Assembly (NCBI GenBank): GCA_938031185.1
Contig: CALHGX010000020.1
Location: 1 to 64,000 of the forward strand
DNA from: an uncultured bacterium
GTDB taxonomy: Bacteria; Verrucomicrobiota; Kiritimatiellia; CAIKKV01; CALHGX01
DNA: 64,000 nt
Reading direction: 5' to 3'
In this document: one piece after another, positions 15,470 through 37,125 of the stretch
How the letters are laid out: every line of letters begins with the position of its first letter
Numbering within the stretch: position 1 is the stretch's first letter
Made by a program: the position numbers and the translations under genes
The notes under the pieces: model-generated
What the model was told of the DNA's origin: nothing
The model's input: the letters and a program-made list of their open reading frames with translations, nothing else
Databases searched by the model: none

Positions 15470-17254
15470 TCATCGAAGGCTCGGGTGCGCCGCCAGAAAA
15501 CGGTACAACGTGGCTCGTGACACGCCCAATGCCCGGGCCGCACGGACCCGATTTCCACTGCAGGACTGGAGCGCTTCCCGCACCGCCGCTTCGTCCAAAC
15601 GTCGCGGTCCTTCCCTCCCCATTCCTGCGGCCAGCATGGCCTGGCCCGCCGGTGCTGACTGCGTCTCCACGGCTCTTCGCAACGCCACGGGCGGGAGATG
15701 CTCCGGCTTAATCACCGCGCCCTTGCACTTGATGAGCGCAAATTGAATCCAATTCTGAAGCTCGCGAACATTTCCCGGCCATGAATAGGTGAGCAGAAAA
15801 TCCATGGCCTCGTCCGAAAACCGCATGCCTTCACGGCCGGTCTCCCGCGCCGCCCGTTCCAGGAAATGGCGGGCCAGCACAGGGATATCTGCGCGACGCT
15901 CGCGCAAGGGCGGAATGGTAATGGGAACCACGCTCAACCGATAGAACAGATCCTCGCGAAAACGGCCCGAGGCCATCTCCCGAGCTAGATCCTTGTTGGT
16001 GGCGCTGATCACCCGCACGTCCACGCGAATGGTGGTTTCACCGCCCACTCGTTCGAAACAGCCCTCCTGCAAAACGCGGAGGAGCTTTGTCTGCATGGCC
16101 GGGGAAATATCTCCAATTTCGTCGAGAAAAATTGTGCCGCCATCCGCCAGTTCAAAACGGCCTTTTTTGTCTCGCACAGCGCCTGTGAACGCCCCCTTCA
16201 CGTGGCCAAAAAGCTCGCTCTCCAACAACCCTTCCGGCAGGGCGCCACAATTTACCGGCACGAAGCGCCGGCTGGCACGGGGACCTTCGTTGTGCAAGGC
16301 CGCCGCGATGAGCTCCTTGCCCGTGCCGCTTTCCCCCTGGATCAGGATTGGCACCGCGGACTGCGCCAGGTCGGGGATGAGTTCGAACAGCGCCAGAATC
16401 TTTGGGTCTTTGCCGATGATGCCTGAAAAATGCTCCACTTCACCCAATCGTCTGGCCAGGCTGACTTCGCGCGTGACATCCCGAAAACACGCCACCACGC
16501 CCTGTTGCCGCCCCTCCGGATCGGCATACTCGCGCACCGTCATGGAAACCCGTCGGGGCTCCCCGTTCTTGGCGATCAGCTCGAAATCCTTCTCCGTGTT
16601 CAAGGGGAACGGAGCGCCATCCTCGCAGAAGGAACACTTGCCGCCGCAAAGCCCTCCCGGAAACACGTCATAGCAGTCCCGATTGAGCACTTCTTCGCGC
16701 GAATAGCCCGTTATCCGCTCGGCAGCCGCATTGAAATAGAAAATGCGCCGCCGCGTGTCATGGGCCAGCACTCCTTCAGAAATATTGTCCAACGCCAGCG
16801 CCACGTTCCGACCGGCACGAACCAGCGCATCGAGTATGCCGTGCTCCAGCAAGTCGCTCACCAGGCGCTTGACGGTATCGCGCACCTCCACAAAAACCCG
16901 CCATACTTCCTCTCGCTCGCCCAGCGCCTTGGCGGGATCAGGCAAGTGCCAATGGACCACGGGCAGATGGCCGGGCAACGGCGGGCAGGCCGCCTCGTCT
17001 TCCCGGAACATCGTAATCACCGCGTCCATGGTATGCGGCAGCGCTTGATCCAACGCCTTCGAGCGCTGCGCGGAGATATCCACGCCCGCTTCCCGCATCA
17101 CCTCCACGGTGAGCGGGTGGACAGGCCGTGGATCCAACCCCGCGCTGTAGGCTTCCACACGGCCCCCGCCCAGCGCCCGGCCGAATCCCTCCGCCATTTG
17201 GCTGCGGCACGAGTTGCCCACACATATGAACAAGACCTTGATCTTACGTTCCAT
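15470..17254 (-). CDS. Sigma-54 enhancer-binding protein with N-terminal ArsC/LMW-phosphatase and PAS domains
   Basis: Transcription activator of 594 residues. Residues 1-140 are a low-molecular-weight phosphatase/thioredoxin-coupled ArsC fold: the CX5R loop is C11-VGNSC-R17, the general acid lies in HLPDP (D106), and the ArsC-like CP is at C90, but the middle ArsC cysteine is Phe. Residues about 150-265 are a PAS domain with four clustered cysteines (C194, C203, C207, C210). Residues about 275-510 are the AAA+ domain with Walker A GESGTGKE and the sigma-54 contact loop GAFTGA (354-359). The C-terminus is a Fis-type HTH (GNRVRAARALGVSRATLYRFL). It lies directly upstream of a sigma-54 promoter and palindrome. 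The signal could be arsenate, phosphotyrosine or thiol oxidation; this is not decided by sequence. Confidence 0.9.
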   Translation of the reverse strand: MERKIKVLFICVGNSCRSQMAEGFGRALGGGRVEAYSAGLDPRPVHPLTVEVMREAGVDISAQRSKALDQALPHTMDAVITMFREDEAACPPLPGHLPVVHWHLPDPAKALGEREEVWRVFVEVRDTVKRLVSDLLEHGILDALVRAGRNVALALDNISEGVLAHDTRRRIFYFNAAAERITGYSREEVLNRDCYDVFPGGLCGGKCSFCEDGAPFPLNTEKDFELIAKNGEPRRVSMTVREYADPEGRQQGVVACFRDVTREVSLARRLGEVEHFSGIIGKDPKILALFELIPDLAQSAVPILIQGESGTGKELIAAALHNEGPRASRRFVPVNCGALPEGLLESELFGHVKGAFTGAVRDKKGRFELADGGTIFLDEIGDISPAMQTKLLRVLQEGCFERVGGETTIRVDVRVISATNKDLAREMASGRFREDLFYRLSVVPITIPPLRERRADIPVLARHFLERAARETGREGMRFSDEAMDFLLTYSWPGNVRELQNWIQFALIKCKGAVIKPEHLPPVALRRAVETQSAPAGQAMLAAGMGREGPRRLDEAAVREALQSCSGNRVRAARALGVSRATLYRFLAAHPSLR

Positions 17255-31936: not shown

Positions 31937-32815
31937 TCAACCGCCGGTTTCTCCCGTTCCGGGAACCGCCGCCACCTCCCCTGCGAGATCCGCCTCATCC
32001 ATCCGCCGCGCGCCTTCAAGTATCAGACTCATGGTGCCAGCTTTGATCGTCGCGTCCCGCTCCGACGGCGAACCGCCCCGAAACCGAAACGACGCCCCCC
32101 CTTTGCGCAGCGCGCCGTAAACCCCTTCTTCTCCGGTCTTCTCTCCGCACACCGCATGGACGATGCGGCCGCCATCGAACGCCAGCGCGCTGATCAGCTC
32201 TTGCGCTTGATCCAGCACCTCCAGCGTGCCGGTCTTTCCCGCCGAATCAATCAACTGGATCACATCCGTCAACGCCAGAACGTCAAGACGGCCCGAGAAT
32301 CCGTCATCGGACCGCGCACGCCGAATAGCCTCTTCGGCCGCCCGGCGCATGTTCTCAAGCTCCTGACGCCGGTGCATGGTCTTGCGCACCGCGAAGCACA
32401 GCTCGCCCCCGTCGGTTAAGTCCAGGCGACTGACCGCCACTTCCACCGGCTGCATCAATCCATCGCGCCGGCGGCAGAACGCCTCCATGACGGCATGTCC
32501 TCCGCACTCCACCTGCTGCCGAATCCGGGCCAGAAGCGCCTCGCCGAGCCCCGGAATAATGTCCTCTATTGTCCGGCGCCGTAGCTCCATCCGTGAACAC
32601 CCTGTGATCTCCTCGGCACGGAGATTATGGTCCACCAGCCGCCCCTCGAAATCGGTAATGACCACGGCGTCGTATAGCCCATTTAACAGCCGTTCGTACA
32701 GATCGTCTCCCCTGGCCCTCTCCGGCGTTGGAGCAGTCGGCATTCGCACTTTCAAGTGTGGTGCGCTGCGGACGCGAAGCACGCTGCCCGGCGCTGCCTG
32801 GCCTTGTTGTTCCAT
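31937..32815 (-). CDS. PAS domain plus DUF4388 signalling protein
   Basis: Cytoplasmic protein of 292 residues. A PAS domain (about 40-150; YDAVVITDFEGRLVDHN) is followed by a short helical linker and a DUF4388 domain (about 175-280; FSGRLDVLALTDVIQLIDSAGKTG), a module seen with two-component, chemotaxis-like and polarity systems in delta-proteobacteria and PVC bacteria. There is no output domain. ATG at 32815 is chosen because a G-rich ribosome site (GGGGGG) lies 5 nt upstream; the longer frame begins with TTG. A candidate sigma-54 promoter lies about 90 bp upstream. Confidence 0.8.
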   Translation of the reverse strand: MEQQGQAAPGSVLRVRSAPHLKVRMPTAPTPERARGDDLYERLLNGLYDAVVITDFEGRLVDHNLRAEEITGCSRMELRRRTIEDIIPGLGEALLARIRQQVECGGHAVMEAFCRRRDGLMQPVEVAVSRLDLTDGGELCFAVRKTMHRRQELENMRRAAEEAIRRARSDDGFSGRLDVLALTDVIQLIDSAGKTGTLEVLDQAQELISALAFDGGRIVHAVCGEKTGEEGVYGALRKGGASFRFRGGSPSERDATIKAGTMSLILEGARRMDEADLAGEVAAVPGTGETGG

Positions 32816-32900: not shown

Positions 32901-32916
32901 AGCATATTACATGCCC
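32901..32916 (-). promoter_or_regulatory. Candidate sigma-54 promoter of the PAS-DUF4388 gene
   Basis: Minus-strand GGGCATGTAATATGCT: GG and GC 10 bp apart, GGCA kept, ATGCT at -12; the first T of the -24 block is G. The predicted start point is near 32890, about 75 nt before the ATG. It is the weakest of the six sigma-54 elements proposed here. Confidence 0.45.
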
Positions 32917-33037
32917 ACTGGCCTGCTGTCCACATGATACAATCAAAATGACGCCATCCCCCGATGTGCGGGCAAGACGGCCTCATCAACCGATTGTTTC
33001 CGCCCCTCCTTCCGCCGGATCAAAGCGCCGCCGTGTC

Positions 33038-33053
33038 TGGCATAAAACATGCT
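33038..33053 (+). promoter_or_regulatory. Candidate sigma-54 promoter of the HU-zinc ribbon gene
   Basis: TGGCATAAAACATGCT: TGGCA kept, GG and GC 10 bp apart, ATGCT at -12. The predicted start point is near 33064, about 40 nt before the ATG at 33105, with the ribosome site inside the leader. Confidence 0.5.
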
Positions 33054-33104: not shown

Positions 33105-33857
33105 ATGGAGCGAGGAATGACCAAACAACAACTGGTGGACGAATTGGCGAAGCAGGCTGGCATCAGCAAAGCGCGGTGCCTGAAGGTATTGGATGCTCTT
33201 GTGGAAACCGCCTGCCGAGAGGCCCCAAAGGGGTTCAACATCCCCGGCCTTTGTCATCTTGAGGTGGTGACAAGGAAAGGACGTATCGGCCGAAACCCGC
33301 GCACCGGCTCCAAACTGTGGATTGGTCCCCGCAAAGGCCTGAAGATCACACCGTTGAAGAAGGCTCGCGACAAAATCGCGCCATCCCACGAACACGTCGT
33401 GACGGTCATGGAAGAGGAATCCGCATCGGTACCGGCCTTCTCGCTCATCACCTTTTCTTGTACGGCCTGCGGCGTGGAAATCGAGGCATCAAGTGATCTG
33501 ATCGGCTCCAAGACCGCCTGTCCGGCATGCCAAGCACAAATCGTCGTTCCCGCCGAAACCTCTTCGGAACCCGCGTCGGTGCTGTTTCAATGCGCGGCAT
33601 GCAAGGCAGAAATCGAAGCGCCCGCTCATGCGATTGGTCAGCAGGTGCTATGTCCAGCCTGCGGCGCGCCGCTTCGCATCCCAACCCGTCAAACAGCGGA
33701 AACAGCCGCCACAAGCCTCGCTCAGAACTTCGATGGCGCCAGCAGCCGCACCATGCGTATCGAACTGCCGCCACAATCGGCCCCTGCCGCCCCCCCGCCG
33801 AGTGAGCGCAAGATTGTCATTCGGCGTTCCGCTTTGTCCGAATCCGCGGCAACTTGA
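33105..33857 (+). CDS. HU-family DNA-binding domain fused to two zinc ribbons
   Basis: Protein of 250 residues. Residues 5-95 are an HU fold with the arm motif GRNPRTGSK. Two near-identical zinc ribbons follow, with ligands C119/C122/C139/C142 and C163/C166/C183/C186. The C-terminus is low-complexity, proline-rich and basic (ERKIVIRRS). GGAG lies 7 nt before the ATG at 33105. The HU part would bend DNA; the ribbons may bind protein or RNA. It is divergent from the PAS-DUF4388 gene, with candidate sigma-54 promoters on both sides of the shared spacer. Confidence 0.85.
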   Translation: MERGMTKQQLVDELAKQAGISKARCLKVLDALVETACREAPKGFNIPGLCHLEVVTRKGRIGRNPRTGSKLWIGPRKGLKITPLKKARDKIAPSHEHVVTVMEEESASVPAFSLITFSCTACGVEIEASSDLIGSKTACPACQAQIVVPAETSSEPASVLFQCAACKAEIEAPAHAIGQQVLCPACGAPLRIPTRQTAETAATSLAQNFDGASSRTMRIELPPQSAPAAPPPSERKIVIRRSALSESAAT

Positions 33858-34062: not shown

Positions 34063-34539
34063 CTATCGAGATGCCGAAGACGATCCGAAGAGATGCCCCG
34101 GCCGCTGGCTCAAGACGAACGATGCGCCCGCGCCGTTCTCGACACCTTGCGGCGCACTCTGAAAAACTCGTTGCAACTCCTGCGCGGCCGGTGCGGCGTA
34201 CAACTTGACCAAGCCCACGTTCGCACTTGAGGTGAACACCACCACGAGCAGCAAATCGCCGCTCACTGCTCGAATAAAGATGCTCCGCCTCTCGCCTTGA
34301 TGGAACACCGCGCTGAACTCGTCTTCCCCCAACATTCGGGCCAGTTCCCGGCTGGCACCGAAGACGCCGGCACCTAACGCCGAAATAAGGAAGGGGTCTC
34401 GAGCGCCCGGCCCTTCCTGCGCCAGCACATACCCGCCGGAGTCGCACAAAAGGCATTCCTCCGCTTCGGCGCGCACCAGTAGATCAAGCAACACGCGCTT
34501 GACGGCTTTCAGGTCTTCCTCTCTTAGCGACGAATGCAC
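34063..34539 (-). CDS. mglB: Roadblock/LC7-domain protein, MglB-like
   Basis: Protein of 158 residues with one Roadblock/LC7 domain (about 10-125): AEECLLCDSGGYVLAQEG, a central ISALGAGVFGASRELARML helix, and FTSSANVGLVKLYAAPAAQEL. MglB proteins of this size act as GTPase-activating partners of MglA. The start is GTG at 34539 with AGGAG 8 nt upstream. It lies 60 bp behind mglA on the same strand. Identification as MglB rests on domain, size and neighbour. Confidence 0.78.
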   Translation of the reverse strand: MHSSLREEDLKAVKRVLLDLLVRAEAEECLLCDSGGYVLAQEGPGARDPFLISALGAGVFGASRELARMLGEDEFSAVFHQGERRSIFIRAVSGDLLLVVVFTSSANVGLVKLYAAPAAQELQRVFQSAPQGVENGAGASFVLSQRPGHLFGSSSASR

Positions 34540-34599: not shown

Positions 34600-35235
34600 T
34601 CACACCAGCACCAGTTCCCTTTCCTTCGTTTCCCGCCGATTGTATGCCTTGACGAATCGGCTCAATACCATTCGCGCAATCATGTTCAGGCTCTCGAATA
34701 CCCCTTGCCCCTCCGTGGCCACCGCTTCATAACTTGGACGCCGCCCGCCCTCCTGCCGATTCAATAGGAACTCCATGTAATGAATAGGTGCAATGTTCGG
34801 CAAATCCCGTTTGTTGTACTGCAGCACATACGGAATCGTTTCGATTGAATCCCCTTGCAAAAGAAGGTTTTCCTTCAAATTCGCGAAACTCTCGACATTC
34901 TCCTGCATCTTCGACCACTGGCTGTCTGCCACAAAGACCACGCCATCCACCCCTCGCAACACCAAACGGCGCGTCAGGTTATACATGCTTTGTCCCGGTA
35001 CGGTGTAAACCTGAAAACGCGTCGTGTAGCCCTCAATCGCATCCGCCACCAAGGGCATAAAATCGAAAAAAAGCGTCCGATCCCCCGCCGTCGCCACCGA
35101 CGTCAAGTCGCCCCTTGCATCGGCCGATATCATGCGGTGCATGGTCTGAAGATTGGTTGTCTTGCCCCCCATGCCCGGTCCGTAGTACACAAGCTTCAGT
35201 TGAACTTGCCTGTTAGCAAAATTGACAAACGACAT
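34600..35235 (-). CDS. mglA: MglA-type Ras-like GTPase
   Basis: Small GTPase of 211 residues. The P-loop is GPGMGGKTTN, the switch II segment is TVPGQSMYNLTRRLVLRGVD and the base-specificity motif is NKRD. It starts MSFVNFANRQVQLKLVYYG as MglA proteins do. MglA-GTP sets cell polarity and controls gliding or type IV pili; in non-motile bacteria its role is less clear. A strong candidate sigma-54 promoter lies 73 bp upstream. Confidence 0.93.
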   Translation of the reverse strand: MSFVNFANRQVQLKLVYYGPGMGGKTTNLQTMHRMISADARGDLTSVATAGDRTLFFDFMPLVADAIEGYTTRFQVYTVPGQSMYNLTRRLVLRGVDGVVFVADSQWSKMQENVESFANLKENLLLQGDSIETIPYVLQYNKRDLPNIAPIHYMEFLLNRQEGGRRPSYEAVATEGQGVFESLNMIARMVLSRFVKAYNRRETKERELVLV

Positions 35236-35307
35236 GCCACACCTTTGAGAGAAAAACCAACGAACAACGGCTGCCTTCTTTCAATCAAAGTCTGTGCCTC
35301 TTCGTAG

Positions 35308-35323
35308 CAGTAATCGTGCCACG
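35308..35323 (-). promoter_or_regulatory. Candidate sigma-54 promoter of mglA-mglB
   Basis: Minus-strand TGGCACGATTACTGCT: complete -24 block TGGCACG, GG and GC 10 bp apart, CTGCT at -12. The predicted start point is near 35297, giving a leader of about 60 nt before mglA. Confidence 0.65.
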
Positions 35324-35424
35324 CCTGGCGGGCCACCCCCCGTCTTACTTCTGCCCTCAAATAGCCTACCCCATTGCGTGCCTGCTTCAGAGTCCTGCCT
35401 CATTCATTTCAAACCCAGCGACGT

Positions 35425-35440
35425 TGGCATGCATTCTGCT
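35425..35440 (+). promoter_or_regulatory. Candidate sigma-54 promoter of the HhH gene
   Basis: TGGCATGCATTCTGCT: six of seven -24 positions match, GG and GC are 10 bp apart, CTGCT at -12. The predicted start point is near 35451, about 46 nt before the ATG at 35497. It points away from the mglA promoter, making a divergent sigma-54 pair about 100 bp apart. A TTGACA at 35459-35464 has no matching -10. Confidence 0.55.
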
Positions 35441-35496
35441 TTCCTCTATCCTGCAATTTGACATTTGTTTTCATAAATAGAGAAAGGAACGTACTC

Positions 35497-36720
35497 ATGC
35501 AAGACACAATGCATAGAGGCACGCGACCCGGCCCTGTGAAGGCCGACGGCGTCACGCAGGCGCTGCATATGATTGAAGCGATTCGCGAGGCCTTGGGTGT
35601 CGAATCCGACTGGGTGCAGGTGCCTATCCGCGCCGTGCTTGCCAATCTGCCAGACCATTTGCGCGGGCCAGCTTGGAGCACGGCCTTCCCGGACGGGACC
35701 ATTGATCTGCCCAAAGAGGATTTGTTCCGACAGCTCGCCGCCGGAGCGGTTTCTTATCCATTGAGAGATTTGCTGCCGGATCTGCCGCCGCAATGGGTGG
35801 CCGATGTTCCCGAGGCCATGATCGCGCTCGATCTGCCAACGATAGTTCAGACCCTTCCGACGGACTGGATGGGCGGCTCAGCCAAAATGGCCGAGGACAT
35901 GGAAGAAGCGATGCGCATGCGGGATTATTTCGCTCCTGCCGCAGCGGCAGCCGATCCTGCATCTGCACAGCCATCGCCCCCTGCATCGCCGGCTCCCGCG
36001 CTTCCACGGCGCAAGAAGGCTCCTATTCCGGCGATCGTGCCCGGCCTATGGAACGGCGAGGAAACCGGTCCTGATGCGGCGGTCGCGGCGGTGGATATCA
36101 ACCGGGCCGGGATCGAGGAGCTTGTCCGCCTGCCCGGTGTGGGGCCAGCGCGTGCCGCCGCCATTGTGCGCGACCGCGAAACGCATGGGCGATTCAACGG
36201 TATTTACGATCTTACCCGGGTGCCGGGCATCGGGCGCCGTTTCTTCACGCGCATCACAGGCCTTTCGCTGCGAATCAAGGATCGGCGCGACCGCCATGAA
36301 CTGCTGAACGACCTTCTCGGCCTGCCGAAGGACGCCCGCCCCACCCTAGCTCAACTGACAACTCAAATAGCTGCCACGCTTGGCCTGGCCGGGGTTGTGA
36401 TGACGGGACGAGATGGCATTGCCCTCGCCTTCGCGGGTATGACGCCCGAGGAGGCAGGCCGCTTCGGAGCGTTGGTCCCCCAACTCTTCCGACGAACAGG
36501 CCGCTATTTGCGCCGCATGACCAAGGCGTCCGACACCCAGTGCCTCGCCCTTCCCATGGCTTCGCCCCCCTTGCTCTTGCTCGCCATGAACGAGTTCTTT
36601 CTCGTGGCGTCGTTGCCCGCCGATGCGAAGCTGGATCCGCTGCTGGAGAAAATGTTGCCGGTGGCAAAGGAATTGGACTGGCTGTTACGGCCACGCGCCG
36701 TGGCCCGTCCCTCTTGTTGA
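35497..36720 (+). CDS. Helix-hairpin-helix protein with Roadblock-like C-terminus
   Basis: Protein of 407 residues, not clearly recognised as a whole. The N-terminal part (about 20-135) holds a repeated pattern of short strands and LP-x-L segments. A Pro/Ala linker (about 145-195) follows. A ComEA-like HhH module (about 199-260) has INRAGIEELVRLPGVGPARA and VPGIGRRFF. The C-terminal 120 residues (LTTQIAATLGLAGVVMTGRDG, MNEFFLVASLP) read like a Roadblock/LC7 domain by pattern only. AGGA lies 8 nt before the ATG. It is transcribed divergently from mglAB, so a role with the MglA switch is plausible. Confidence 0.75.
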   Translation: MQDTMHRGTRPGPVKADGVTQALHMIEAIREALGVESDWVQVPIRAVLANLPDHLRGPAWSTAFPDGTIDLPKEDLFRQLAAGAVSYPLRDLLPDLPPQWVADVPEAMIALDLPTIVQTLPTDWMGGSAKMAEDMEEAMRMRDYFAPAAAAADPASAQPSPPASPAPALPRRKKAPIPAIVPGLWNGEETGPDAAVAAVDINRAGIEELVRLPGVGPARAAAIVRDRETHGRFNGIYDLTRVPGIGRRFFTRITGLSLRIKDRRDRHELLNDLLGLPKDARPTLAQLTTQIAATLGLAGVVMTGRDGIALAFAGMTPEEAGRFGALVPQLFRRTGRYLRRMTKASDTQCLALPMASPPLLLLAMNEFFLVASLPADAKLDPLLEKMLPVAKELDWLLRPRAVARPSC

Positions 36721-36750: not shown

Positions 36751-37125
36751 TCAAGCGTCCGACGGAAGGTAGCGCTTGACGGTTTCGACCAGCGTGTCGA
36801 GCCCTTGATCTTTCACAATATAAGCCACGGCCCCCGCCCGCCGGGCATGTGTCTGAAGGATCTCGTGAGCATGAAGCGACAGCACAATCACCTTGGAATT
36901 CGGCGACGCTTTCAATATGCGCCGCATGGCCTCCAATCCGTTCAGAACAGGCAAGACCAGGTCCATCAGCACGATGTGCGGCTGATGGCGAACAGCCAAA
37001 TGCACTGCTTCCCGCCCCGTTCGCGTCTCCAAGCACAGCGCCCCTGGAAAAGACCGGACGATCTCTTCCCGAATGTGTCCGCGAAGCTCATCGTGGTCTT
37101 CTGCGATGAGAATGATCGGACCCAT
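36751..37125 (-). CDS. Single-domain response regulator
   Basis: Stand-alone receiver domain of 124 residues. The acidic pair is E9/D10, the phosphoacceptor is D55 in VLMDLVLP, and the switch Ser (VIVLS) and Lys (YIVKD) are in place. There is no output domain, so it acts by protein contact or phosphotransfer, as CheY- or FrzZ-like proteins do. It converges on the HhH gene with a 30-bp gap and shares a neighbourhood with mglAB. No histidine kinase is seen nearby. The 279 bp upstream of it (to nadB) hold no gene or clear promoter. Confidence 0.88.
   Translation of the reverse strand: MGPIILIAEDHDELRGHIREEIVRSFPGALCLETRTGREAVHLAVRHQPHIVLMDLVLPVLNGLEAMRRILKASPNSKVIVLSLHAHEILQTHARRAGAVAYIVKDQGLDTLVETVKRYLPSDA

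Follow-up and report, generated by a model that had tools for sequence, protein, structure and literature searches.

MglA and MglB form a well-studied bacterial front-rear polarity switch, which regulates pili in M. xanthus and sets the location of the type IV pilus in Myxococcus. How do cells coordinate the expression of this switch with that of the pilus machine? We addressed this question at a locus of an uncultured bacterium of the class Kiritimatiellia, starting from a stretch of 64,000 nucleotides (the window). Here mglA and a gene for an HhH-Roadblock protein diverge from a 261-bp gap (35236-35496) which, by its sequence, appears to be occupied by two back-to-back sigma-54-type promoters. 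We consider it likely that the sigma-54 type IV pilus regulon of this organism includes the MglA switch and that a working promoter pair co-expresses MglA and a second MglB-like partner. Class-wide sequence evidence, extended to Verrucomicrobia, suggests that switch and pilus machine share one sigma factor, and that a further Roadblock protein, fused to an HhH domain, is a partner of MglA.

Two -24/-12 elements between mglA and the HhH-Roadblock gene

The mglA gene (34600..35235, minus strand) encodes a Ras-like GTPase of 211 aa that matches M. xanthus MglA (6h17) over residues 1-197 with an E value of 2.7e-63; Thr78 of the MglA family is present and invariant in alignment A1. Judged by this full-length similarity, Thr78 and the adjoining Roadblock gene, the GTPase is a member of the MglA family. 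The adjoining gene, mglB (34063..34539, minus strand), encodes a Roadblock/LC7 protein (Robl_LC7, E 4.6e-12) and starts 60 bp 3′ of mglA; the two genes probably share one transcript. On the other side of the gap lies the gene for the HhH-Roadblock protein (35497..36720, plus strand; 407 aa), with a ComEA-type HhH domain at residues ∼195–255 and a Roadblock domain at ∼280–400. Convergent with it is a gene for a single-domain response regulator (receiver; 36751..37125, minus strand), which has no upstream sigma-54 site with a score of at least 9 in the site list of the window.

Sigma-54 promoters carry GG at -24 and GC at -12, 10 bp apart, in a sequence near TGGCACG-N4-TTGC, and transcription starts ∼12 bp past the GC. 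The gap, flanked by the start codons of mglA (35235, minus) and of the HhH gene (35497, plus), contains TGGCACGATTACTGCT on the minus strand (35306..35321, read from 35321 to 35306) and TGGCATGCATTCTGCT on the plus strand (35425..35440), both of which match TGGCAYRNNNNYTGCW exactly. The distances to the start codons are 86 bp on the mglA side and 72 bp on the HhH side, and the spacing of the two divergent elements is 103 bp. With a sigma-54 matrix written by hand from the consensus (the general cut-off of 10 is our own choice) the two elements rank first and second among the sites of the window, the mglA element at the top. Both score at least 16, a value reached by 3 sites in the 64 kb compared to 0.65 expected from Markov simulations. 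The divergent sigma-54 pair that the first-pass annotation had placed between mglA and the HhH gene was thus confirmed in its coordinates and its orientation. The 2.47 Mb of the genome contain 11 exact matches to the pattern and 5 to its reversed control; with only 11 matches in total, the occurrence of two inside one 261-bp gap is not due to chance.

Linkage to type IV pilus genes and the candidate activator

Besides the two in this gap, the 11 exact matches include one ahead of pilB and another ahead of the pilin gene; this pilin-gene element (TGGCATGCAGTCTGCT) shows one mismatch compared to the HhH-side element. Others precede dnaK, a gene for a predicted secreted protein (contig C2) and one for a large predicted enzyme (contig C75), and ∼3 of the 11 fall within apparent genes. 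The dnaK site (L152 site 1507, G000:C71:7506) scores 18.5 and is tied with C2:46583 as the best in the scored stretches of the own genome. The pilus cluster itself (contig C24) has the order site-pilB-pilC-PilR-like regulator-site-pilin, so that a gene for a PilR-like regulator of the NtrC family adjoins the sigma-54-headed pilin gene; the same is seen in most relatives in which we saw this region. At the pilT and pilM loci of this genome we found no convincing sigma-54 site at any gene start. As promoters of this type are also found at pilB and pilA, the tie of the mgl genes would extend to the whole type IV pilus regulon.

In some relatives the mgl and pil genes are joined directly. One genome (G021) carries the run site-mglA-mglB-pilB-pilC-site-pilin, and in G128 and G129 a site is followed by mglA-mglB-pilB. 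In G130 the HhH gene lies on one side of the pair and PAS-mglA-mglB-pilB-pilC on the other, the site preceding the PAS gene that heads the mglA run. We also surveyed the surroundings of pilC orthologues in 14 further genomes of the class (18 searched), in addition to the own genome and G021. A pilin gene was found beside pilC or pilR in 11 surveyed genomes and is preceded by a site in 9 of them, with scores of at least 15 and at most ∼125 bp ahead of the pilin motif. The two exceptions are G127 and G323; the latter has the mgl pair, no pilin-gene site and no PilR match there. Four genomes (G019, G332, G035 and G046) keep the pilin-gene site and have no mgl sites, so membership of the mgl genes in the regulon is optional. 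The list of genomes that have or lack the mgl–pilus link offers a ready comparison.

The machinery for such a regulon is encoded. RpoN is present in the genome (PF04552, E 8.5e-59) with an intact RpoN box, ARRTIAKYR, and in all six mglA-bearing relatives tested (6/6). There are ∼10 enhancer-binding proteins (10 strong PF00158 matches among 14 listed). We propose that RpoN-RNA polymerase would bind each -24/-12 element in the gap and that one enhancer-binding protein driven by ATP would open both promoters; the likeliest candidate is the PilR-like regulator whose gene sits between pilC and the pilin gene. Transcription would then run from both sites, one transcript giving MglA and MglB and the other the HhH-Roadblock protein. 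In this genome such promoters also precede pilB-pilC and the pilin gene, and induction would therefore be joint for the pilus motor, the fibre and the switch that determines pilus position. The pair would balance the GTPase against two MglB-like proteins and provide matched amounts when pili are made.

We favour PilR as activator of mglA and the HhH gene from gene linkage and promoter type. The alternative that fares best keeps both promoters sigma-54-dependent and assigns them to another enhancer-binding protein, for example the PAS-type protein encoded at 15470-17254; the mgl genes would then answer to another signal than pilA. Such an activator could be drawn from the ∼10 enhancer-binding proteins, and the four genomes in which pilA retains its site and mgl is without both would fit it. 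It would also agree with the search for upstream enhancers: dyads and 6–8-mers upstream of 18 mglA-side sites, 15 HhH-side sites and the own pilA and pilB sites yielded no shared motif above shuffles, in particular none common to mgl and pilA or pilB, the commonest words being G+C-rich or pieces of the sigma-54 element itself. An enhancer site for PilR is therefore not assigned. However, in G021 and G130 mglA is linked to pilB-pilC behind one site, and both in the own genome and in most of the relatives seen the PilR-like gene is a neighbour of the pilin gene, which makes another activator possible but distinctly the less likely choice. The protein at 15470-17254 has PAS, AAA and Fis-type HTH domains, and its N-terminus appears, from the translation by eye, to contain a low-molecular-weight phosphatase/arsenate-reductase-like part.

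Regulation of pilA by PilR and RpoN is established (passages of PMC2725144 and PMC6058289, and of PMC3546991 on PilR). In G. sulfurreducens a PilR-like gene lies just 5′ of the pilin gene, which has a -24/-12 promoter, according to a passage of PMC2725144. The locus described here resembles the PilR/RpoN-pilA systems of Geobacter sulfurreducens, Pseudomonas aeruginosa and Myxococcus xanthus in having a PilR-like gene and a -24/-12 pilin promoter; it differs in having promoters of this type at mglA-mglB and at the HhH-Roadblock gene as well. The term 'mgl' is absent from the main text of the paper on the G. sulfurreducens RpoN regulon. MglA stimulates pilus assembly and MglB is the GAP of MglA, as stated in passages of PMC9481161 (for pilus formation also PMC11580455). 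Like M. xanthus mglBA, the present locus combines an MglA GTPase with a Roadblock partner; in contrast, mglB is here downstream of mglA, a second, HhH-fused Roadblock gene is divergent and sigma-54 sites head both, whereas the divergent neighbour of M. xanthus mglBA is masABK (passage in PMC3546991). At the level of abstracts and passages, a literature search found no paper that links mglA to sigma-54 control.

Conservation of the pair in Kiritimatiellia and of a single element in Verrucomicrobia

A search for mglA in 345 genomes of the class gave 36 matches (4 weak, 2 fragments), of which 30 loci were examined, 28 with at least 150 bp upstream. The mglA-side site reaches a score of at least 10 at 18 of these 28 loci. 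At 21 loci the HhH gene diverges from mglA or from PAS-mglA: 15 carry both sites, 6 neither (G035, G019, G327, G046, G332 and G127) and none carries one alone. The first-pass annotation had suggested shared control of the two genes and had named conservation of the pair in relatives as a check, and loss of one element under the same gene order as evidence against it. Such a loss occurs at 0 of the 21 loci, and the both-or-neither pattern, 15 versus 6, supports the view that sigma-54 controls mglA and the HhH gene together. In control sliding windows of 500 bp a divergent pair was found in 7 of 3625; these windows overlap and the genomes are related, and on that ground a binomial value was not used. 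The pattern also bears on an improbable reading in which one element is a true promoter and the other a chance match or remnant: single mglA-side sites do exist in G021, G128 and G129, where no adjacent HhH gene was seen, but no single site occurs among the divergent HhH loci, and in the window both elements, not one, score at least 16.

The pair is spread over 10 families, and the MglA tree of the class has it in both of its deep branches. In this tree, in which G130 is still labelled 'nosite', the label needs 6 gains or losses (at least 5 by the starred branches), so the pair was lost or gained repeatedly. The gap between the -24 boxes ranges from ∼6 bp (L146, L147) up to ∼370 bp (L035). At L146 and L147 two identical sigma-54 elements form an inverted repeat upstream of mglA, and with the -24 boxes ∼6 bp apart two polymerases might exclude each other; the contig of L146 has both sites and stops short of the HhH gene, which places this locus outside the 21.

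In order to be independent of the matrix we counted gapped 3-mers de novo. GGC-N8-TGC, a word with the sigma-54 spacing, shares first rank among the gapped words and occurs ahead of mglA at 18 of 28 loci of the class, compared to a best of at most 10 in shuffles and 4 of 77 in outgroup mglA upstream regions. In two of three close pairs of loci the core is 92% conserved compared to 64% and 48% in the flanks; in the third, with a badly aligned gap, the values are 54% and 40%. A reading with sigma-70 promoters for these genes, the elements being chance matches or a conserved signal of another kind, is hardly tenable: GG-N10-GC is common in G+C-rich DNA (29 sites at a score of at least 9 expected per window) and one weak sigma-70-like match overlaps the HhH-side element, but sigma-70 matches are at background level, and conservation in 10 families, de novo recovery of the motif and a better-kept core in two of three close pairs all argue against it.

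In Verrucomicrobia the HhH-Roadblock gene lies immediately 5′ of mglA on the same strand. A GG-N10-GC element, mostly with TGGCG instead of TGGCA, was found near the start of 9 of 13 such HhH-mglA operons; shuffles of the 13 loci contain GGC-N8-TGC in at most 3. A wider scan, at a threshold score of at least 10, covered the 66 outgroup loci in which mglA is preceded by a Roadblock gene. Genes of the HhH type have sites at 9 loci (16 rows before length filtering; scores 10.7–14.1), those of the MglB-sized type at 4 loci (52 rows; scores 10.4–11.8). Because most of these Verrucomicrobia operons carry such an element, it is plausible that an ancestral sigma-54-headed HhH-mglA operon was later split into the divergent pair.

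The HhH-Roadblock protein and a second candidate pair

Judged by profile matches and an AlphaFold model, the HhH protein combines a ComEA-type HhH domain with a C-terminal Roadblock (MglB-like) domain; both the HhH domain and the C-terminal domain (∼280–400) are predicted with confidence. The C-terminal domain aligns with M. xanthus MglB (6h5b; Z 11.8, rmsd 2.8, 117 aligned) and with Roadblock 3kye (Z 13.3, rmsd 3.0, 115 aligned), and a profile of the family C-terminus finds Roadblock 7f8f in the PDB (E 1.6e-7). These matches bear out the earlier description of the gene as Roadblock-like. Direct profile-profile comparison with MglB is modest (probability 79.5, E 1.5e-5), and Pfam Robl_LC7 at E 0.01 matches 7 of 15 family members, the window protein not being among them. 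The HhH domain aligns with ComEA of G. stearothermophilus (8dss; Z 10.1, rmsd 0.9, 65 aligned, 42% identity) and by itself passes TIGR00426. It is alike in ComEA; here, in contrast, it is fused to a Roadblock domain, and with 58 bits the protein stays below the cut-off of 152.35 of the full-length ComEA family TIGR01259 (NCBIfam). Residues 1–190 (35497-36090) match no Pfam family. In Verrucomicrobia homologues the N-terminal region of the family appears duplicated.

We infer that the HhH-Roadblock protein may act on MglA. A bolder and rather doubtful idea is that it would be a DNA-binding MglB-like regulator that ties MglA to DNA, either the nucleoid or incoming DNA, with the divergent promoter setting its dose relative to MglA/MglB during pilus building. 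The ancestral partner of MglA in the phylum would then be this protein, since Verrucomicrobia encode it directly before mglA in a sigma-54-headed operon.

A second, weaker divergent pair had been described at 32901-33053, and it is partly supported. The plus-strand element (TGGCATAAAACATGCT, 33038..33053), before a gene for an HU/IHF-like protein fused to zinc ribbons (33105..33857, plus strand; family match), scores 14.5. The minus-strand element (GGGCATGTAATATGCT, 32901..32916), before a PAS-DUF4388 gene (31937..32815, minus strand; family match), scores 10.4, which is near background as ∼18 sites with a score of at least 10 are expected by chance per window. The divergent PAS/HU-zinc-ribbon neighbourhood recurs in G030 (L185), with sites at 1787 (plus) and 1967 (minus) that are not divergent; in G327 both genes run in the same direction and no site was placed ahead of either start. 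From these arrangements the plus element is likely to be a real promoter element and the minus element remains unproven. A PAS-DUF4388 homologue lies directly 5′ of mglA on the same strand in G127, G128, G129 and G130.

Preceded by this good sigma-54-like site, the HU/IHF-zinc-ribbon gene is a neighbour of the mgl cluster. At RpoN promoters DNA is bent by IHF proteins (passage in PMC7962754), and for this reason the HU/IHF-zinc-ribbon protein might serve RpoN promoters here.
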